Assembly: GCF_900129315.1 (NCBI RefSeq)
Contig: NZ_FQUS01000028.1
Coordinates: forward strand, 1 to 54,754
Reading direction: 5' to 3'
DNA length: 54,754 nt
Source: Fodinibius roseus
GTDB lineage: Bacteria > Bacteroidota > Rhodothermia > Balneolales > Balneolaceae
The notes under the pieces were generated by a model. The model saw nothing but the letters and a program-made list of their open reading frames with translations, was not told where the DNA came from and did not search any database. The translations under genes were made by a program, and so were the position numbers. Shown here in pieces: positions 3,167 through 53,623 of the stretch. The stretch's first letter is position 1. Each line of letters begins with the position of its first letter.

Positions 3167-4147
3167 CTATCCAAGCTTCCAGTCTATAGCTTTAAGACGC
3201 TGGGCAACCCTTTTAATATCACTCAGTACAGCGTCATCATCCGGAAGGCCTCCAATAACCAATTTTTTAAAAGTGCTGTTATACACAGACTTGATCTTAT
3301 CCCAGGTTTCCTCGGGTTTGTCAAAAAGCAGGGCTGATGCGGGATGCTCATACAACCAATCGTACTTGTTGCCGTAACTTTTGATATCATCAGCTCCGAC
3401 TTTAACCAACATCCTATCGAGCTTTTTGCTTTCAAAGAAACTTTGAATTGAAGGTTTCTTCAGCAACATGTGAATGTCATAGGTGTGCCGGACTTTATTT
3501 CCGAGATCCTCATACGGGTTTTCGGCATGTGAAAACCGGACCAAAGACATTATTTTCTCGCAAAAGGTCCGTTCTATAGTTAGTACTTTCAAGGGGAAGG
3601 GAGCTAATCCATATTTTTCAACGAGATCTTCCTGACCTCTCGCTTTCATCATGTCGGCAATAAACGAGTGAACCTCTACTTCTTCATGAGGTTCAAAATG
3701 TCCCAGCCTTGAAACCTCAACAATGATTTTATCCCGAACCTGGCCATAGGGTTGGTCATATTCATGTTTTGCATACTCGTAGGCTACCTTTCTATTTTTT
3801 CCACGCTTCATAGTAATCCCGGGTAATTCTACTTCCTCCAAATCAGTATCGTCAACCACTTTGCTGACATTCCGGACCCTTTTGTCCATTTGGTTGTTAG
3901 ATAGCCCGGGATCTTCTAACACTACTAGATCTAAATCCTCCGAAAACCGGTTGATCGCCTGGTAACATTTGGAGAGCGAGGTGCCTCCCTTAAATACGGC
4001 AACGTCTTTCATATCGGAATGAAAGATCGCATGAAGGGCATAGGTTACCCAGTAGTCTTTCTCGATGTAGATTTCCCGAATATTCTTATAATCGGCCGTA
4101 GCCCTTATGGCATCCCGAAAGATTTCGGCATCTTCGTGTAGGTTCAT
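3167..4147 (-). CDS. AbiEii-type nucleotidyltransferase toxin
   Basis: A 326-residue protein of the AbiEii/AbiGii family, the toxin half of type IV-like AbiE toxin-antitoxin and abortive-infection systems. The nucleotidyltransferase signature is clear: FKGGTSLSK at residues 52-60, then SEDLDL at 69-74, giving the GS(x)nDxD arrangement with Asp71 and Asp73 as probable metal ligands. Members of the family transfer nucleotides to tRNA or other targets. The start codon directly abuts the stop codon of the upstream antitoxin-like gene, so the pair is translationally coupled. The gene is full length with no sign of decay. Its place in an accessory patch beside an integrative-element boundary suits a defence or maintenance role. 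Confidence 0.88.
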   Translation of the reverse strand: MNLHEDAEIFRDAIRATADYKNIREIYIEKDYWVTYALHAIFHSDMKDVAVFKGGTSLSKCYQAINRFSEDLDLVVLEDPGLSNNQMDKRVRNVSKVVDDTDLEEVELPGITMKRGKNRKVAYEYAKHEYDQPYGQVRDKIIVEVSRLGHFEPHEEVEVHSFIADMMKARGQEDLVEKYGLAPFPLKVLTIERTFCEKIMSLVRFSHAENPYEDLGNKVRHTYDIHMLLKKPSIQSFFESKKLDRMLVKVGADDIKSYGNKYDWLYEHPASALLFDKPEETWDKIKSVYNSTFKKLVIGGLPDDDAVLSDIKRVAQRLKAIDWKLG

Positions 4148-4873
4148 CTAAACAATATTCCAGTTTTGGGCTGTGGACAGGCTACTGCCAAGACTACCGA
4201 ATTTGTAACTCGACAGTGGATTCAGGCTATTTTTCAATTTGGGAAAAGCGCTGCTAAATTCCTGATCGGTAAGCAGGGCTCCCAGCAGCGCACGTACCCG
4301 GGGAGGATATTGCAGGGCGTAGGTAATCAGCTTATTTCTGTCGGTAGTACTCAAATCATGTATGCGCTCTTGCAGTTGCCCGATAGCATTATCGATATCC
4401 AGATCCGGGATTTTCTTGAAATCCTTTATGGCATCCAGGATCTCCAGGAAAAGGATGTTCTCGGTATTGGGATCCACGTAGCTCTTGACCGATTTTATGT
4501 TCAGGTTATCAATCTCGGTATTGATCCTTTTCTTATTGCAGGCCAGCGTAATGTTTTTGGGGACCTGCGTTGTAAGCCCCATCCGATTGTACAAAGACAA
4601 GCCGGTGATGTAAGCGATGCGATTGTCACCTTCGTACATATAGGGTTTGAGCAGCTGTTTTTCATTAGGCTTTAAATCGCCAAATAATGACTTTTTGGGC
4701 TTGTAAAACAGGCCTTTGGAAATCCTTTTTACGACACCCTTGGATATCAATCGCTCGATGGCCTTGGTAGCAGCCCCGTATTCGCTGTTATCTATACCGA
4801 GCTGGTCATATTTAAATGTCGTTCCTTCGTCAAAGGAAGAAACTTTCTCTTTTATTCTTTTTGCAGTACTCAT
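4148..4873 (-). CDS. DUF6088 / AbiEi-like antitoxin regulator
   Basis: A 241-residue protein upstream of and contiguous with the AbiEii-type toxin. The N-terminal 60 residues look like a winged-helix domain (repeated Ile/Leu pattern, KAIERLISKGVVKRISKGLFY). A central segment around residues 85-140 (YITGLSLYNRMGLTTQVP, then ITLAC) is typical of the AbiEi/DUF6088 family. Such proteins neutralise the cognate toxin and usually repress their own promoter. Its TAG stop is at 4148-4150 and the toxin ATG at 4145-4147, leaving no gap. About 120 bases of AT-rich DNA upstream (4874-4996) would hold the promoter and operator, though no clear repeat stands out there. Confidence 0.82.
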   Translation of the reverse strand: MSTAKRIKEKVSSFDEGTTFKYDQLGIDNSEYGAATKAIERLISKGVVKRISKGLFYKPKKSLFGDLKPNEKQLLKPYMYEGDNRIAYITGLSLYNRMGLTTQVPKNITLACNKKRINTEIDNLNIKSVKSYVDPNTENILFLEILDAIKDFKKIPDLDIDNAIGQLQERIHDLSTTDRNKLITYALQYPPRVRALLGALLTDQEFSSAFPKLKNSLNPLSSYKFGSLGSSLSTAQNWNIV

Positions 4874-7624: not shown

Positions 7625-8473
7625 TTACGATGCTCGAAACATATCCTCGAGATAGTTGACAACGCTGTCTTCCATATTGGTTCCTATGACTTCGTGCGCA
7701 TGTTTCTTGAGCCGCTCATCCGCATTTTGTACCGCAATACACTGGTGTGCAATTTTAAACATCCTGATATCATTAATGTGGTCTCCAAAGACAACCAGAT
7801 CCTTATCCCGTTGGCCAAATTCATCTTGTAGCTGTTGGATGGCCCGATCTTTTGTCGCCCTGTAATCGTGAACAGTAAGCCAATGCCAGCCCCTGGAGTA
7901 GAAGTTCTCAAACAGGTGAACTTCTACCCGGTCCGGAAATTGATCAAGCAACTCTTGTTTTATTCGAAGCAACTTCTGTTCCCGGTCTATAAACGTAAAG
8001 CACGTTATATAATGGTCCCTGAGGTCCCGGATACTTTTCGTGCTTTGCAGCCGGTGATCATTATTAGCAAGGCGATCCTCATAATACCACTGCAGTCCGC
8101 CGTTGCTGATCTGATTGTAAAACAGGAAATCCGACCCGCCATAGTGAGAAGAGATGAAAACACCCACATCATGCTTCTCGACATATTCCCGAATTCGTTG
8201 TCTCACGTCCTGTTGAATCTCATTGATAACAATGTGCTCCTTGGTATTGTAATCTGAAATATAGGCGCCATTCAGGCAAATTACCGGGAGGGACAGCTGC
8301 AGGTCCCGGAGGATATCGGAAATCGTGTGAAGGCTCCGGGCCGTCGCTACGGTAAAATCCAGCCCGTTGTCGATTAATCGCTGCAATTTTGTCCGGCTAT
8401 GCTTGGATAATACCCCGTCGTTGTTAAGAAGTGTGCCGTCAAGATCAGAAACGACGAATTTTTTGTTCAGCAT
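7625..8473 (-). CDS. HAD superfamily (Cof-type, IIB) phosphatase
   Basis: A 282-residue hydrolase of the Cof/YbiV group. Motif I is SDLDGTLL with nucleophile Asp10 and general acid Asp12. Motif II is TVATARS near residue 42, and motif IV is VVFGDHINDIRMF near residue 228 (GDxxND). A type IIB cap lies between motifs II and III. The family removes phosphate from sugar phosphates, nucleotides or cofactors. It is the last gene of a five-gene minus-strand operon, 6 bases after the SDR gene, so it probably dephosphorylates an intermediate or product of that pathway. The N-terminus at 8473 gives the normal family length. Confidence 0.88.
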   Translation of the reverse strand: MLNKKFVVSDLDGTLLNNDGVLSKHSRTKLQRLIDNGLDFTVATARSLHTISDILRDLQLSLPVICLNGAYISDYNTKEHIVINEIQQDVRQRIREYVEKHDVGVFISSHYGGSDFLFYNQISNGGLQWYYEDRLANNDHRLQSTKSIRDLRDHYITCFTFIDREQKLLRIKQELLDQFPDRVEVHLFENFYSRGWHWLTVHDYRATKDRAIQQLQDEFGQRDKDLVVFGDHINDIRMFKIAHQCIAVQNADERLKKHAHEVIGTNMEDSVVNYLEDMFRAS

Positions 8474-8479
8474 CAGGAT

Positions 8480-9175
8480 TTAAATGTATTGGATTTTAGC
8501 AATGCCCCGATCCGGGGGTGATACCGTATCTAAGGGACGTAATTCTACCTCGCCGATGAGCATGTTTCCCGAAGCCCGTGCAATTTGATAAATGAACGCA
8601 GCAAGTTTTTCAGGCTCTATTTTTTTATCGTCATGCGTTTTGGACCTGTTTTTTATGGCTCCGGCATTGATTAAGGTCGTACGAATTCCACGATCTCTTG
8701 TTTCCTGTATATATACTTCCGATAGTGCTTTAAGAGCCGCTTTTGTAGCACAGTAGGCGGCACCCCCTTCAAAATAATGATCCGCGGCATGACTTCCCAT
8801 AATGATAACCCTGCCCTCCCCGGAAGATTCCAATGAGGGGGTAAGATATTTCAGGAGCAAAAAAGAGGCGTTTAAATTGGTATTGACCGAATATAACCAA
8901 TCTTTCTCAGGCATCTCTTTGATGGAAGACAGTTTCCGTACAGCAGCATTGAGGAAACAGAGTGAGATGGTTCCCGTTTTTTCTTTTAATCGATCAACAG
9001 CTGCCCTGATCTCCTTCGGCTTCGAAAGATCGCATTGGAGTTCATTCATCCATGCTTCTCCTTTGAGCGTCTTATTGAGAGAATGGACAACATATCCTTT
9101 GGTATCAAAATATTTTGCAACGGCATACCCCGTTCCCCGGTTGGAGCCGGTGATAAGCATGTTTTTCTCTTCCAC
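8480..9175 (-). CDS. Short-chain dehydrogenase/reductase
   Basis: A 231-residue SDR. The nucleotide-binding motif TGSNRGTG is at residues 9-16, NAA at 76-78, catalytic Ser near 128 and the YCATK pair Tyr141/Lys145. After the catalytic lysine the usual NAGAIKN segment is present. It should carry out NAD(P)H-dependent reduction or oxidation of a carbonyl or alcohol; the substrate is unknown. It sits 6 bases downstream of the PurC-like gene and 6 bases upstream of the HAD gene on the same strand, so it is translationally linked to both. It probably handles an intermediate made by the ligases encoded upstream. Confidence 0.88.
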   Translation of the reverse strand: MEEKNMLITGSNRGTGYAVAKYFDTKGYVVHSLNKTLKGEAWMNELQCDLSKPKEIRAAVDRLKEKTGTISLCFLNAAVRKLSSIKEMPEKDWLYSVNTNLNASFLLLKYLTPSLESSGEGRVIIMGSHAADHYFEGGAAYCATKAALKALSEVYIQETRDRGIRTTLINAGAIKNRSKTHDDKKIEPEKLAAFIYQIARASGNMLIGEVELRPLDTVSPPDRGIAKIQYI

Positions 9176-9181
9176 AATCTG

Positions 9182-9889
9182 TCAGATTAAATTAAGAAGA
9201 CGCGTCCACTCTTTTCTGATGTCCTCATGCGAGGCTCCTTTTCTGAACAAGTCCTTGTCAAGCGATCGGCCGGATTCCGATTTCAGCCTCATGCCATCGG
9301 GAGAAATTTCTGAGGTAACAACATATTCTCCGCGGGAATTCTTTCCAAAGATCAGGCAAAAATCCACCAGTACCAGATCAGACATCCACTCTTTCAGGGC
9401 CTTGTTGACCTTTAAAGCAATGGTTTTCAGCACTTCGGGATCTACTCCATATTCCCGGATATAATCGGCTGCAATCGGCTGGTCTTCGGGATCGGTTCGG
9501 TAGTCGAACTTGACGATCGGGTTTTCGAACTCAGCATATTTTTCAAACAATCCGGGATAAAATTTCAAGGTGGAGCCAATGGCAAAATTTTTGACGATGA
9601 CCTCGAAGGGGGGATTGCTGCAGCGCTGCGCAATATACCGCCGGGGATCCACACGTTCCACAAAGGCTGTATTGATACCCTTCTCCCGAAGTACCCCGAC
9701 GGCCTTCTCGTAGAAATCCAATCGCAGGACATCGGTCCCCTCAACAAGTTCATGGCGGTCATAGGTATAGCTTGTCAGCGATGGAATCAACTCCACAAGC
9801 AGGAGATCATCCTTGTATTCGTATATACGTTTACTTCTCCCTTCCATTATCGGAGAATCGGATATCACACGGTCAATAGCGTTATTCAT
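9182..9889 (-). CDS. Divergent SAICAR-synthetase (PurC) homologue
   Basis: A 235-residue protein counted from the ATG at 9889; a longer frame to 9982 would overlap the upstream gene. Recognisable PurC elements are EGRSKRIY (16-23), FEVIVKN (95-101), LVDFCLIFG (174-182), SEISPDGMRL (193-202) and DKDLFR (211-216). The conserved early motif DxSAxDG, which shapes the nucleotide/aspartate site in classical PurC, is replaced by a Ser/Thr/Tyr-rich segment at residues 36-52. PurC joins aspartate to the carboxylate of CAIR using ATP. Here the neighbours are an adenylating enzyme, an SDR and a HAD phosphatase rather than pur genes, and purM lies 31 kb away. A specialised amide ligase is therefore plausible, though a housekeeping purC cannot be excluded. 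Confidence 0.78.
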   Translation of the reverse strand: MNNAIDRVISDSPIMEGRSKRIYEYKDDLLLVELIPSLTSYTYDRHELVEGTDVLRLDFYEKAVGVLREKGINTAFVERVDPRRYIAQRCSNPPFEVIVKNFAIGSTLKFYPGLFEKYAEFENPIVKFDYRTDPEDQPIAADYIREYGVDPEVLKTIALKVNKALKEWMSDLVLVDFCLIFGKNSRGEYVVTSEISPDGMRLKSESGRSLDKDLFRKGASHEDIRKEWTRLLNLI

Positions 9890-9917
9890 AGAGCAGGATA
9901 TGGCTATGTTAAATAGG

Positions 9918-11393
9918 TTAAAGATTCCAGTAATCTCGCTCGGAAAGCGTATCCGGTGCTGCCAGGCGGATGGTAAGAGCATCGGTATTGGTTTGAAGCC
10001 AGGAAGATACTTCCGAGGTAAGATCTTGTGTGAGACGTTTTACAATCTGTTTTTTGGTGTTTTTGAGAAGGCCTGGCTTTTCTTCCGGAGAAAACGTTAA
10101 CTCAGCGGTGAGTCCCAATTTAAAGTCCTCGTGAAGCTCGTTTATTTTGAATTTTGGCCAGTTCGGAGCCGAGGGATCGTTGAGTATGGAAAAGCCGGAA
10201 GAAGGACGGCTCAGCCCGGGGACATCATCGATGGCTTTGGCGACTTCCGCTTCACCCGCATAGATACCCGGAGCTATTTTTACACTCCGCTGTAGTCTCC
10301 CTTTAAATTTATAGGCTTTCTTTCCCGCAGGACAATCGGTATCATAGATTTTTACTAGGTCTGAGGTTTTGTACCGTATTAGTACAAATCGCTGGCTAAA
10401 AGGAAAAAGCGGGGTTATCACAAGCTCACCCACTCCTTCATCAATACGGCCTCCGGTTTCCACATTCAGCACTTCAGGTACCACAAAAGGCTCAAAATGA
10501 AACCCCCCGCAATTGTCACAATAGCGGGCTCCGCCAAACATTTCGGACATGGAAAAATTATCGGTGATGCCGGTTCCGAAAAAATCTTCCATAGCTTTTT
10601 TTCTTTTCGGCGGTACGGGCCAGCCGAAGATGGTAATAGCATCCAGCTGATCTTCCGGAAGCCTGATATTCTCCTGTTCCATGTACTGGTAGAGAACACA
10701 AAGGCCCATATAGGTTATATTTAATTTGCTGACCTTCCGCTGGTGTCCGGGGAAATCAAATTCATTCTGTAATAGCCATACTGTCCGCAAAACCCCGTAA
10801 TCCCTGATCAATTCAACCATGAAATTATAACCGAATCCGGGTATTTTCAGCACGGCGCCATGATTCATAGATCCTTCCGAGATGCCCAGCGGCTGGGATG
10901 CTTCGGATTCAAACCGGTTGGACTGCAGAACGGAAAAGAAATTCTGCAGATACTGCTGTTCTTCAAGCGATCTCTGAATAAGCAACGGACGCTGACTGAT
11001 CGTTCCTGTCGTGAAGGTTACAAATCCAAAGGTTGTGATATCAGAAATGATCCCGTATTCGTGCTCATAGATGCTTTCCTTGGTGACAAGCGGCAGCTCT
11101 TCCAGCTGCTCATAACCGGTGAATTTATGGCCGGCTGTTTCAAGACTCTTTCCATAATAAGAGGTATTCTCACGGGCCATCCGGACCGTAAGATCAATCA
11201 TCTTATCCCTGAGAAGAGCAAATCCTTCCTCGTACCTGGCGGGATGAGCCAGCACATGAGAAAACAAGGGAGCCATAACAGCAGATCCGACGTGCTCGGG
11301 TTCAAGCCGGGCAGGAAGATCCTTTATCCAGTTTGTAAATTCTTCTGATGTAGGTCCGGAAGTAACATTTCTTTCTTCCTGGGTTCCATGCAT
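9918..11393 (-). CDS. PaaK-like adenylate-forming enzyme
   Basis: A 491-residue member of the phenylacetate-CoA ligase/LuxE branch of the ANL superfamily. The phosphate-binding loop is FTTGTISQRPLLI near residue 127. The adenine-site region has NFSMSEMFGGARYCDNCGGFHFE near residue 288, the ribose-binding Asp is in RYKTSDLVKIYD near 357, and the hinge is KFKGRLQRSVKI near 377. A smaller C-terminal domain follows. It should activate a carboxylate as an acyl-adenylate and transfer it to CoA or a carrier. The CDNCGG stretch, with a later Cys in DTDCPAG, may hold a structural metal. It begins 1 base after the repeat-protein gene and ends 28 bases before the PurC-like start, in the same operon. Confidence 0.82.
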   Translation of the reverse strand: MHGTQEERNVTSGPTSEEFTNWIKDLPARLEPEHVGSAVMAPLFSHVLAHPARYEEGFALLRDKMIDLTVRMARENTSYYGKSLETAGHKFTGYEQLEELPLVTKESIYEHEYGIISDITTFGFVTFTTGTISQRPLLIQRSLEEQQYLQNFFSVLQSNRFESEASQPLGISEGSMNHGAVLKIPGFGYNFMVELIRDYGVLRTVWLLQNEFDFPGHQRKVSKLNITYMGLCVLYQYMEQENIRLPEDQLDAITIFGWPVPPKRKKAMEDFFGTGITDNFSMSEMFGGARYCDNCGGFHFEPFVVPEVLNVETGGRIDEGVGELVITPLFPFSQRFVLIRYKTSDLVKIYDTDCPAGKKAYKFKGRLQRSVKIAPGIYAGEAEVAKAIDDVPGLSRPSSGFSILNDPSAPNWPKFKINELHEDFKLGLTAELTFSPEEKPGLLKNTKKQIVKRLTQDLTSEVSSWLQTNTDALTIRLAAPDTLSERDYWNL

Positions 11394-11394
11394 G

Positions 11395-11799
11395 CTACTT
11401 TGAACCTATCTCTTTGGTCACACCCGCAATAGCTTTACCAAATGCTGCCGGTTCGGCAGCAGCTATTTCTGAGAAGACAGCGGGCTCGGCCGTCATAACC
11501 TTGCCAATTAAAGCAGGATTTTTTTCAGCAACTTCGGAAATGATCGACGGATTGGAAGCCAGCGCCTTACTTAAAATAACAGGCTCGGCCGTAGCAATTT
11601 CCATAATATTGTCAGGCGATTCTTTGATCCTTTCGCTTATTGCCATAGGTTCGGCCGCCATTATCTTGGATATGGTTGAAGGATTCATCCGGGCAATTTC
11701 ACTTGCCACCGCAGATTCGGCTCCCGGATATTCAGCTAATTGTGACGATTCTGCCGGTACGTAACCTCTCATATCTCTACTTTTCCTGGATTCTTCCAT
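11395..11799 (-). CDS. Small protein with eight tandem 11-residue repeats
   Basis: A 134-residue protein counted from the ATG at 11799; an in-frame GTG at 11844 would add 15 residues. Residues 35-122 are eight consecutive 11-mers with a strict period: IARMNPSTISK, IMAAEPMAISE, RIKESPDNIME, IATAEPVILSK, ALASNPSIISE, VAEKNPALIGK, VMTAEPAVFSE, IAAAEPAAFGK. Each has Pro at position 6, usually Glu or Asn before it, a hydrophobic residue at 1 and 9, and Lys or Glu at 11. There is no Cys, signal peptide or membrane segment. It is first in a five-gene operon and abuts the adenylating-enzyme gene. It could be a helical scaffold, a carrier or a substrate peptide. I do not recognise the family. Confidence 0.75.
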   Translation of the reverse strand: MEESRKSRDMRGYVPAESSQLAEYPGAESAVASEIARMNPSTISKIMAAEPMAISERIKESPDNIMEIATAEPVILSKALASNPSIISEVAEKNPALIGKVMTAEPAVFSEIAAAEPAAFGKAIAGVTKEIGSK

Positions 11800-12217
11800 A
11801 ATAAAATTTTTAGTTATTGGTTTTTTGTGTACATGAAATCCCACATTTTTTCACAGTCTCAGTTGGCTCGGGGATGGGATAGTGATGATATCCCGTTAAA
11901 ATCACCACCCGGAGATTGCTTGTTTCCCATTTCCATCTACTTATTAATGGCAAACTTCAGCCAACAACATTCAAAAAAACCTTTATTAAATCAACCATAA
12001 AAGATTGATGGGAGGATTAGTTTCAATATAATATTTTTTACCTAATTCCATAATGCTTTTTAAAAAGGGTCAGGCATGGCCCCGAATAATATGCTAATCT
12101 AATGTAGTATCATGACATTTCGAAAGCCGTTGTTATGTGAGGATAAATTTCCCTGATCTTGTCCCGGATCATGATATTCCTATAACCGGCCCGCAGTAAT
12201 TCCTGTCGCCTTCCTTT
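11800..12217 (-). other. Intergenic region upstream of the five-gene operon
   Basis: No credible gene is seen. The stretch 11800-11870 is AT-rich and must contain the promoter of the minus-strand operon. The rest, up to the end of the epimerase gene, shows no repeat or RNA that I can support. Confidence 0.5.
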
Positions 12218-13405: not shown

Positions 13406-13654
13406 ATGAAACAGATAGAGAAAGGGTTACAAAAATACTATAAATTCGGGCAATACAAGAACTTTTATAAATACAAAGTGCGGAGTTCCCCCTTTACGGG
13501 ACAAATTCACGTTACATTTACAAACGGCATTCAGAAACTTTTTGCCAGCGGAAGGTGTAAGGAGGAGGCTTTAAAAAAGATATTCACACAAATTGACAGA
13601 CTGGCTTCCTGTAAAAACGGGCGGTCATCTCATCAGATGACTCCTCATAACTAA
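13406..13654 (+). CDS. Small hypothetical protein, paralogue of the next gene
   Basis: An 82-residue basic protein that I do not recognise. Its first 65 residues line up without large gaps with the product of the gene at 13790. Shared features are MKxIExxL, YYKxGxYKxFYK, a central F(T/S)NG, then ASGxxxEEALxKIFxxID. The pattern suggests a compact alpha/beta fold. No Cys pair, signal or membrane segment is seen, and the Lys/Tyr richness could suit nucleic-acid binding. The ATG at 13406 is preceded by a 240-base AT-rich leader. The two genes lie 135 bases apart on the same strand, so they look like a tandem duplication. Confidence 0.72.
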   Translation: MKQIEKGLQKYYKFGQYKNFYKYKVRSSPFTGQIHVTFTNGIQKLFASGRCKEEALKKIFTQIDRLASCKNGRSSHQMTPHN

Positions 13655-13789: not shown

Positions 13790-14056
13790 ATGAAAGCTAT
13801 CGAAACCCGTCTGAAAACCTACTACAAAACAGGAAATTATAAGGGGTTTTACAAAACCAGGGAGTCAAAGATGAAACTATCCGGAGGTCCCTGTACCCAG
13901 CTTATCTTCTCCAACGGATATAAGGAAATAATTGCTTCAGGGCAATTCAATGAGGAGGCGTTGGAAAAGATATTCGACAAAATAGACCACTATTTCGCCT
14001 CAAGTTCCATCCGGTACCAATCCAGCAAGGAAAGGTCGTTTGCTGCCTCGCCGTGA
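13790..14056 (+). CDS. Small hypothetical protein, paralogue of the previous gene
   Basis: An 88-residue protein similar to the one encoded at 13406: MKAIETRL, YYKTGNYKGFYK, FSNGYKEIIASGQF, EEALEKIFDKID. The C-terminal 20 residues (Ser/Arg-rich) are not shared. An AT-rich spacer with its own leader separates it from the first copy, so independent expression is possible. Conservation of the core with different ends suggests that the duplicates are both under selection and may have diverged in partner or timing. Function unknown. Confidence 0.72.
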   Translation: MKAIETRLKTYYKTGNYKGFYKTRESKMKLSGGPCTQLIFSNGYKEIIASGQFNEEALEKIFDKIDHYFASSSIRYQSSKERSFAASP

Positions 14057-47088: not shown

Positions 47089-48077
47089 TCATATAATTTC
47101 ACTATAAGGCGTCCCACGATTAATGACAGCAAAGACCCGATAAAGCAGCTTACACACAACAGCATTTTTCACGCTCTGCGGGTGTTTGCCTTCCCCGCAC
47201 TTGCGCTGGTAGTACACCCGCAGCTCCGGATCATACTGGATAGCCGAATGTACGCTATTGAGCAACAGTGTCTTCAGTCGTACGCAACGCCACTCGCTGA
47301 CCCGGTCGGGGTTCTTGATGTTGCCGGATTGGTTAGGAAATGGAGCGCTACCGACAAAACAGGCCAGTTGCCGAGCATTGGCAAACCGGGTAAACCCTTC
47401 GGTATACACCAACAGCCATCCGGCAATTACAGATCCGATACCTGGAATACTAATGAGCAGCTCGTATTGACCTTCCATGTTATTATACCGGCGAAGCAGG
47501 CCCCGAATCTTCCGATCAACTAACGTCAGTTGCTCGGTCAACCTATCATGCTGGGCTTGCATCTGATCGTTTATTTCACCAAGATCTGCTATCTGGCTGG
47601 TAAGGATATTTGCTTTGATGCCATTGGTTAACCCTGTACGCATTTTTATGAGCTTCTCCCGCCACAGCAGCCATCCACGTAGCTCAAGCAACGCTTTTAA
47701 AGGAAGCCTGCTAGGCTGCAGGCGATCCCGAAAGCGCCATAGGTATTCCGCCAAGCGCCTCGCATCAATGGGATCAGACTTTCCCCGGCGGATACCTAAT
47801 GAGCGCTGAACCTGGGCAGCGGCCACCATCACATACCGAACCCCTGTCTCCTCCAGCATCGCCGCCCGCAACAGCCCATACGGGCCGGTATGCTCAACAC
47901 AGACGATCATCTCTTTTAGGCCTATACCCTGACGAGACCATTGTTCCAGCAATCCCGTAAAGCCGCGGGGCTGTTTTGAACGGTTCCTGTGGCCAGCTGC
48001 TGGTTGCTTGCCTCGGTTACCTGCCAGTCCAACTGCCGTTTCGATATGTCGATTCCAATCCGGTAGTTCCCTTCCAT
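47089..48077 (-). pseudogene. IS110-family transposase, frameshifted
   Basis: The start at 48077 (MEGNYRIGIDISKRQLDW) is preceded by an AGGAG ribosome-binding site. The N-terminal DEDD-type RuvC-like domain has Asp in GIDIS, Glu in CVEHTGPYG, and Asp in KSDPIDARRLAEYL. The C-terminal Tnp20 domain has ISIPGIGSVIAGWLL and the Ser-containing CFVGSAPFPNQSG segment. A single base appears to be missing near 47945-47955: the N-terminal frame reads to LRDCWNNGL and then stops, while the rest resumes in another frame with LLEQWSRQG. Without that change the protein would be about 330 residues. Confidence 0.85.
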
Positions 48078-52831: not shown

Positions 52832-53623
52832 ATGTATAAAGTCATAATATTTATACTCTTTTTAATTCCGATGGTATCATTTGGTCAAGATTTCAATAGA
52901 CACTTCAACAGTCTACATCTAAATGGAAGTACAACGATTTATGACTACAATAATAAAAAGTGGATTTTTACAGACAGCTTGGATGCTGAAAAAGGAACCT
53001 TGCCCGCTTCAACCTTTAAAATTCCAAACTCATTGATAATCCTTGAAAGCAAAGTCGTAGCCAACGAAAAGGAAATCATAAAATGGGACGGAACAGAAAA
53101 ATCACACCTCGGAATGGTAATCGAAGCCTGGAACCAAGACACCGATCTGGAAACGGCATTTAAAAATTCAACGGTTTGGTTTTACGTAGAGGCTTCAAAA
53201 AAAATTAAACGCGAACAGTACATAAGAACCCTACAAAAACTCAATTACGGTAATGGCAACCTGAAAGAAAAGGGAAACGACTTTTGGAATTATGGCGACT
53301 TTACGGTAACGCCTAAAAATCAAATTGAATATCTAATCAAGCTATACGAAAATCGACTTCCCTTCTCAAAGAAGAATATTAGCATAGTCAAACGAATTAT
53401 GATTTCAGAAAGTAGCGACAGTCTAACTTTTCGAGGCAAAACAGGCTGGACAAGAAAGAATGGACAGGATATTGGTTGGTGGGTAGGTTACCTTGAAACA
53501 AACGACAACGTTTACTTCTTTGCCACGCGACTGACCAAAGACAAAAACGAGAAAAACCCCGACTTTTTAAGCGGAAGAAAAGAAGTTACTAAACGAATAT
53601 TAAAGGAAATACAAGCGTATTAA
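52832..53623 (+). CDS. Class D (OXA-type) beta-lactamase
   Basis: A 263-residue enzyme with a signal peptide (residues 1-18, ending in VSFGQ). The class D motifs are all present: PASTFKIPNSL (nucleophile Ser and Lys, STFK), NSTVWFYVE (SxV), KLNYGNGN (YGN), FRGKTGW (KTG) and GWWVGYLE (WxxG). It is therefore probably an active serine hydrolase of beta-lactams. It is AT-rich and lies in the accessory region between an integron attC and a second IS256 transposase. Confidence 0.92.
   Translation: MYKVIIFILFLIPMVSFGQDFNRHFNSLHLNGSTTIYDYNNKKWIFTDSLDAEKGTLPASTFKIPNSLIILESKVVANEKEIIKWDGTEKSHLGMVIEAWNQDTDLETAFKNSTVWFYVEASKKIKREQYIRTLQKLNYGNGNLKEKGNDFWNYGDFTVTPKNQIEYLIKLYENRLPFSKKNISIVKRIMISESSDSLTFRGKTGWTRKNGQDIGWWVGYLETNDNVYFFATRLTKDKNEKNPDFLSGRKEVTKRILKEIQAY

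Follow-up and report, generated by a model that had tools for sequence, protein, structure and literature searches.

A rare five-gene operon of Fodinibius roseus with a putative coformycin-type core, a repeat peptide and a PaaK-like ligase

The closest described relatives of the locus considered here are the gene clusters for pentostatin- and coformycin-type nucleoside antibiotics. In the accessible part of one account (PMC12648386), the pentostatin cluster encodes PenA, a HisG-like protein, PenB, the SDR of the final step, and PenC, a homologue of SAICAR synthase, and the accessible part of another places hisG homologues in the adechlorin, pentostatin and pyrazomycin clusters (PMC13055916). 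Our locus is a run of five minus-strand genes at positions 7625-11799 of a 54,754-nucleotide stretch of Fodinibius roseus DNA (contig NZ_FQUS01000028.1, assembly GCF_900129315.1; hereafter the window, meaning this stretch at its full length), encoding a repeat peptide, a PaaK-like adenylate-forming ligase, a homologue of SAICAR synthetase (PurC), an SDR and a HAD phosphatase. We propose, tentatively and as something nearly but not quite probable, that this operon makes a coformycin/pentostatin-type purine-nucleoside antibiotic and couples the product to the ribosomally made repeat peptide. The SAICAR-synthetase homologue of coformycin biosynthesis reportedly turns a histidine-pathway intermediate into 8-ketocoformycin 5'-phosphate, closing the diazepine ring, after which a dehydrogenase is said to reduce this compound and a dephosphorylation to end the route.

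An earlier, sequence-only reading of this DNA described five minus-strand genes with intergenic gaps of 1, 28, 6 and 6 bases, and the list of open reading frames (ORFs) bears this out; because of the tight spacing, the genes are treated here as a putative operon, with the following features:

11395..11799, minus strand: repeat peptide, 134 residues from ATG; an N-terminal part of about 33 residues, eight 11-residue units and a short tail
11437..11700, minus strand: the eight 11-residue units (residues 34-121); proline in 8/8, glutamate before proline in 4/8
9918..11393, minus strand: PaaK-like adenylate-forming ligase, 491 residues; weak NCBIfam matches, profile match to PaaK 4r1l
9182..9889, minus strand: SAICAR-synthetase (PurC) homologue, proposed ring-forming enzyme, 235 residues from ATG at 9889; SAICAR_synt E 4e-30
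8480..9175, minus strand: SDR, proposed ketone reductase, 231 residues, GTG start; adh_short E 7e-31
7625..8473, minus strand: Cof-type HAD phosphatase, proposed nucleotide 5'-phosphatase, 282 residues; Hydrolase_3 E 3e-54, Cof-subfamily model above cut-off

The ORF of the repeat peptide has an in-frame GTG upstream of its ATG, at 11844, and that of the PurC homologue has a longer in-frame version that begins at 9982.

Orthologous clusters and the putative coformycin-type core

The same gene order, which the sequence-only reading had suggested seeking in other genomes, was found in two, one of them with an extra HisG gene inside. A contig scan with the PurC homologue gave a single relative, Aureisphaera galaxeae (62% identity in the best segment), and a ligase profile at E 1e-30 matched two of 397 genomes, A. 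galaxeae and a second genome of the same family (G557); a contig scan with the window's ligase as query found no relative. In A. galaxeae, a single strand (locus L033) encodes the repeat protein, the PaaK-like protein, a HisG homologue (203 residues, Pfam HisG E 2.4e-14), the PurC-like protein, the SDR and the HAD, and in G557 (locus L045) the order is repeat protein, PaaK-like, PurC-like, SDR, HAD and then a gene that by reading is kinase-like. This last gene (L045 11809-12804, 331 residues, directly after the HAD gene, no Pfam match) might encode a self-resistance or nucleoside kinase. Identities to the window's proteins in the two relatives are 54 and 53% for the ligase, 60 and 57% for the PurC-like protein, 54 and 56% for the SDR, 44 and 46% for the HAD, and 45 and 42% for the repeat protein. 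The notion of a dedicated gene set is supported, as neither outcome named beforehand as speaking against it was found: the repeat protein is present in both other clusters of this order, and each of the three genomes carries a housekeeping purC in addition to the PurC homologue.

With two SAICAR_synt genes per genome, the operon copy is ruled out as the only purC; operon and housekeeping proteins share 19-22% identity, and the window's protein shares 20-22% with the three housekeeping PurC proteins. The window's homologue scores 80 bits with the curated purC model, for which the cut-off is 189.9, so that by this threshold it is not a housekeeping PurC, and its PDB matches are named purine-pathway enzymes. 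All three SDR orthologues keep TGxxxGxG and Ser-x12-Tyr-x3-Lys, which we take to be SDR motifs, and all three HAD orthologues keep DLDGTL and GDxxND, presumably HAD motifs. A. galaxeae has two hisG genes, one of them within the cluster, and the window's genome and G557 have one each, outside it; two strong HisA/HisF-type genes are found in each of the three genomes.

The sequence-only reading knew of no pathway with such an order; the combination of HisG, PurC-like protein and SDR is, however, the PenA/PenC/PenB set of pentostatin as given in the accessible text of PMC12648386, and because of this correspondence the PurC-like protein, the SDR and the HAD can be assigned as coformycin-type and most likely make a coformycin-type nucleoside. 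Of the pentostatin-type traits, the window has a SAICAR-synthetase homologue apart from purC and an SDR adjoining it, and it lacks HisG in the cluster. The reductase and phosphatase steps foreseen from the sequence for the SDR and the HAD would fit the end steps of a coformycin-type route. Judged by analogy, the five-gene set would work like a pentostatin/coformycin cluster, which is a likeness rather than proven membership. A search of plasmids for the SDR (541 records) was uninformative.

The gene set is rare. Among 395 genomes of the window's phylum, a full-length match was present in the window's own genome only, 82 others having partial matches (best E 3.5e-13); in the window's order, one of 128 genomes matched, again its own, with 11 other genomes of the same genus lacking a match; and the class and the order of A. 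galaxeae, whose samples overlap, each gave one match in 395 genomes, A. galaxeae itself both times. The GC (guanine plus cytosine) content of the five-gene operon is 46.3%, versus 51-52% in gyrA, gyrB and gidA, and this lower value suggests that the operon was acquired from elsewhere.

The repeat peptide, its ligase and their relatives on plasmids

The 11-residue repeat of the window's peptide is not chance, because its period of 11 stands out from shuffled sequence with a z of 6.4; the two relatives give 10.8 and 9.2, and exactly eight units are present in all three. All 24 units of the three genomes keep the proline, and in the two relatives it is preceded by glutamate in 16 of 16. Between genomes, units at the same position are more alike than units at different positions (0.53 versus 0.39, 0.75 versus 0.51 and 0.48 versus 0.38; permutation p 0.0003, 0.00005 and 0.007), and the array is therefore old, with the order of its units fixed. 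AlphaFold, working from two sequences, models every unit as a ten-residue helix, with a mean predicted local distance difference test (pLDDT) score of 64.8; block scores are 46-53 for units one and two and reach 67-81 at residue 51 and beyond. The repeat protein has no relative in Pfam, NCBIfam or PDB, and Foldseek with its model against PDB gave nothing below E 3.9. A generic, phylum-wide repeat was considered and rejected, as the profile occurs in one of 267 genomes, the window's own; weak plasmid matches to the profile were all in Streptomyces, and five of the six coincide with annotated pentapeptide-repeat genes.

By NCBIfam the ligase bears a weak likeness to PaaK, its best model being DVU_1553 (E 4e-17, 62 bits versus a cut-off of 300) and every match falling far below the curated cut-off, and it has no Pfam match at E 0.01. 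A profile match connects it to the solved PaaK 4r1l (E 1e-24), and the motifs SMSEMFGG and RYxTxDL are kept. Among six ligases, NCBIfam matches are to BagE/FevW in five, to DdaG in four and to coenzyme F390 synthetase in three. The ligase profile gave nothing informative with viral contigs.

Distant relatives of this ligase, at 22-29% identity, are found on plasmids. One example is pRL23b2 of Rhizobium leguminosarum, on which an 88-residue peptide, with glutamate every four residues over twelve intervals, is followed by the ligase and then by an S8 peptidase. The neighbours recognised by Pfam are this peptidase, adenylosuccinate synthetase, an IMPDH-type protein and nitrile hydratase alpha, and further QueC, a QueD-type protein, a radical SAM protein at the place of QueE, a phosphoribosyltransferase and a HAD, with FolE and PurB known from the record annotation only. 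By its gene content this set resembles a toyocamycin-type one. The accessible parts of PMC7492574 and PMC7439116 give toyD, B, C and M as the preQ0 genes, and toyH, E, G, F and I as the later ones. Another example is a cluster shared by Mesorhizobium MesoLjLa4 and Aminobacter pANY103c, with an 83-residue peptide of similar style, then the ligase, and nearby an S8 peptidase, PurC, PurH, a PRA isomerase and a protein of GHMP type that the record assigns to the beta-RFAP-synthase family; formycin A, according to the accessible part of PMC8724604, involves a beta-RFAP-synthase-like enzyme and a second Pur set. The rhizobial peptides, of period 4 or 8, are in sequence quite unlike the period-11 repeat of the window.

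Taken together, the ORF upstream of the ligase is periodic at all six loci, which represent five distinct clusters (z 6.6-10.6; the count of plasmid recurrences leaves out matches on Parabacteroides, Phocaeicola and Bacteroides plasmids and Rhizobium sp. BG6), versus a best z of 3.1 among the 26 scorable of 32 control PaaK-like loci (L004-L032, L042, L046 and L047; six are without an ORF in range, one having 44 bases upstream). These controls reject the idea that any paaK has a periodic neighbour. A match in R. grahamii was rejected as a member of the family, since by reading it looks like an ordinary paaK with genes of phenylacetate type around it. In a tree of 16 ligases, with control sequences from 8 of the 32 control loci (L032 left out as too short), a branch with 99/98 support parts eight ordinary PaaK-like proteins from the other eight, namely the Roseibium and Streptomyces ligases and those of the six peptide-bearing loci; the tree does not show these six by themselves to form one clade. 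A small periodic peptide gene beside a ligase, recurring in five distinct clusters, might be a trait of the ribosomally synthesized and post-translationally modified peptide (RiPP) type, provided that the ligase acts on the peptide, and the role of carrier or substrate earlier suggested for the repeat protein is, by analogy with the rhizobial clusters, strengthened.

Among four strains, every one of the six pairwise comparisons of the rhizobial peptide shows 2 synonymous differences and 0 non-synonymous ones, and the peptide of R. leguminosarum Vaf10 (L064 3001-3255) is shorter than in four other strains by exactly one unit of four residues, an in-frame difference of 12 bases; single units are therefore dispensable there. 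Over these sequences, a small sample of five of eight plasmids, the peptide is constrained. Three of the eight plasmids, from clover and lentil rhizobia, were typed as conjugative.

Wider S8-peptidase matches in Nonomuraea (a record almost unannotated), Calothrix and Paenibacillus showed neither such a ligase nor a periodic peptide. On a Calothrix plasmid, a 103-residue protein encoded just ahead of an S8 peptidase (L058 7325-9314) looks, by reading, like the stretch that precedes the S8 peptidase of Nonomuraea (L057 near 9700-11359), and it might be a prodomain with a gene of its own; further along the Calothrix plasmid comes a nucleoside-type ABC transporter of the BMP family. On a plasmid of Roseibium aggregatum (L060 11254-29390), the ligase lies among transposases, beside ADP-heptose-type, radical-SAM, aminotransferase and phytanoyl-CoA-dioxygenase-type genes, a run that may represent a further natural-product cluster or a locus for surface sugars.

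Proposed chemistry and its alternatives

In the proposed scheme, housekeeping histidine enzymes, in A. galaxeae partly a dedicated HisG, would supply an early histidine-pathway intermediate, the PurC homologue would convert it into an 8-keto-1,3-diazepine nucleotide, the SDR would reduce the ketone, and the HAD would strip the 5'-phosphate; these four steps would follow precedent. PaaK-like enzymes make acyl-adenylates, and BagE/FevW, DdaG and F390 synthetase form ester, amide and adenylyl bonds. Because of the acyl-adenylate chemistry, taken with the regularly spaced carboxylates of the peptide, the ligase is proposed to esterify or amidate the peptide with the nucleoside: it would convert peptide carboxylates, with glutamate side chains the likeliest, into acyl-adenylates and join them, via ester or amide, to the nucleoside or a precursor. 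Once loaded, the repeat peptide would be a carrier, a precursor with many sites for peptide-nucleoside conjugates, or the product itself, and in the rhizobial versions the subtilase would release units. This last step, with its linkage, site and release, is what we infer. As a wider proposition, possible though short of probable, there would be a class of natural products, not found in the literature searched, for which one PaaK-like clade loads purine-nucleoside analogues, in three or more chemistries (diazepine, 7-deazapurine and C-nucleoside), onto regularly spaced residues of short ribosomal repeat peptides, the conjugates being polyvalent peptide-nucleosides or carrier-bound, and the hosts being Aureisphaera relatives, the window's organism and plant-associated alphaproteobacteria. 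Because three nucleoside-type sets share the device, it would act on the common ribonucleoside (5'-hydroxyl or 5'-phosphate) and not on one base.

A number of observations weigh against these proposals. HisG is absent from the cluster both in the window and in G557; the coformycin route can draw on primary histidine enzymes, and HisG in the cluster may not define the coformycin branch. The coformycin-type assignment draws on gene content and precedent, the PenC and CofB sequences lying outside the comparison, and ring closure is called into question by the accessible part of PMC12648386, in which the function of PenC is called unclear and an amide- or C-N-bond-forming step is postulated. As to the ligase, the three Bacteroidota-type proteins have an unusual glycine-rich loop (TTGT, then ISQ, TNQ or TNQ; the rhizobial relatives have TG), and the AlphaFold model, at a pLDDT of 40, has no usable fold. 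Two of seven distinct loci with ligases on the same side of the tree are without the pattern: in Streptomyces sp. NBC_00376 the small upstream gene is unrelated and no annotated nucleoside genes lie within 19 kb, and in Roseibium (L034) the small upstream ORF is non-periodic (z 2.5), with no clear nucleoside genes. The MesoLjLa4/pANY103c set would be formycin-like only, because no gene within 21 kb is annotated for pyrazole formation. As to the peptide, glutamate precedes proline in 4 of the window's 8 units, and no peptidase is found among the five window genes (Pfam, E 0.01), versus the S8 peptidase of the rhizobial clusters; with the fixed order of units, this argues against a simple multi-core precursor and leaves a carrier or a scaffold.

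The same glutamate loss, in half of the window's units, and the lack of a peptidase in the five-gene set favour an alternative that we regard as unlikely, if still the strongest, in which the pathway is coformycin-type but the peptide is a non-covalent helical scaffold for the enzymes, or a nucleoside binder, and the acyl group that the ligase puts on the nucleoside comes from a small acid or an amino acid. Units that keep their position identity between genomes, as in a folded scaffold, and an AlphaFold helix array of modest confidence would suit such a peptide, but a scaffold is harder to reconcile with rhizobial peptides that differ in period (4/8 versus 11) and in sequence and yet accompany the same ligase clade and an S8 peptidase, or with the Vaf10 peptide, which is one unit short, single units being dispensable there. 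Distinctly improbable is a self-protection or delivery device of nucleoside producers, the ligase masking the nucleoside and the peptide storing or delivering it: recurrence of the pair beside chemically different nucleoside-type sets would agree with this, as would the patchy occurrence and lower GC of the operon, suggesting acquisition, but no transporter or known resistance gene is present among the five genes. Very improbable is the original sequence-only scheme, in which the ligase activates a carboxylate, the PurC homologue joins it by an amide bond to an amino acid, and reduction and dephosphorylation follow, perhaps on the repeat protein, with no diazepine nucleoside, since the A. galaxeae cluster, by its HisG, points towards a nucleotide of the histidine pathway and the PurC-like protein, SDR and HAD match the end steps reportedly found for coformycin, even if PurC-family enzymes are amide ligases and a bond-forming step of this kind is the one postulated for PenC.

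Surroundings of the operon and comparison with known systems

To the left of the operon, the window holds, at 1057-2244 and 3167-4873 (both minus strand), a phage-type integrase of low GC content (35.9%; Phage_integrase in Pfam, E 4e-23) and a nucleotidyltransferase of the AbiEii type, next to which is a DUF6088 gene. In R. leguminosarum (L049 17761-19202), an annotated AbiEi/AbiEii pair is found some 9 kb outside the cluster on its QueC side, its likeness to the window's AbiEii being perhaps chance. Elsewhere in the window, two adjoining small ORFs (13406-13654 and 13790-14056, plus strand) are paralogues of no Pfam family, with 45% identity over 66 columns; an IS110-family transposase is found at 47089-47952 (minus strand); and a low-GC gene (36.4%) at 52832-53623 (plus strand) with a transpeptidase domain (E 1e-33) resembles by reading a class D beta-lactamase.

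While the core of the operon appears to be a recognisable coformycin-type set, its front module, the repeat peptide and the PaaK-like ligase, was not found described in the literature searched. No paper joining a PaaK-like ligase or a repeat peptide with nucleoside biosynthesis was found in this search, which is weak evidence of absence, most subscription papers having been outside its reach. We know of no action of the PaaK-like family on peptides. If the proposal is true, nucleoside antibiotics and ribosomal peptides would be joined through PaaK-like enzymes, and a small periodic peptide with this ligase clade would be a genome-mining handle for nucleoside pathways outside actinomycetes, including those on rhizobial plasmids. 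From the recurrence of peptide and ligase beside two other nucleoside-antibiotic gene types, one may suspect a whole family of peptide-nucleoside compounds. With the peptide left aside, the operon would be evidence of coformycin-type gene sets beyond the actinomycetes and fungi named in the accessible parts of PMC12648386 and PMC13055916.

Among known systems, the peptidyl-nucleotides of the microcin C type are similar in that a ribosomal peptide is joined to a nucleoside-type payload, provided that the proposed ligase step is right, and dissimilar in that no ThiF-like adenylyltransferase is found among the five window proteins (Pfam, E 0.01). The peptide of microcin C is a short heptapeptide, versus a repeat peptide here. 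The PEARL scaffold-peptide pathways likewise build small molecules on a ribosomal peptide and release them later; the five window proteins, however, include no lantibiotic-dehydratase-like enzyme, and the ligase is PaaK-like. BagE/FevW, DdaG and coenzyme F390 synthetase belong by profile to the same superfamily and, going by model names, form bonds outside CoA chemistry; the window's ligase falls far below their cut-offs, on a branch separate from ordinary PaaK. Toyocamycin- and formycin-type sets adjoin the rhizobial peptide-ligase pairs, whereas the window has neither set. The nearest systems are the pentostatin/coformycin clusters (pen, ade and cof), which similarly combine in one cluster a SAICAR-synthetase homologue and an SDR, joined in A. 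galaxeae by HisG. PenD-I, given in the accessible part of PMC12648386 as the makers of the second product of the pen cluster, are without a counterpart in the window's set. From the pentostatin/coformycin clusters as a group the window's cluster differs by the absence of hisG and by the addition of a PaaK-like ligase and a repeat peptide.

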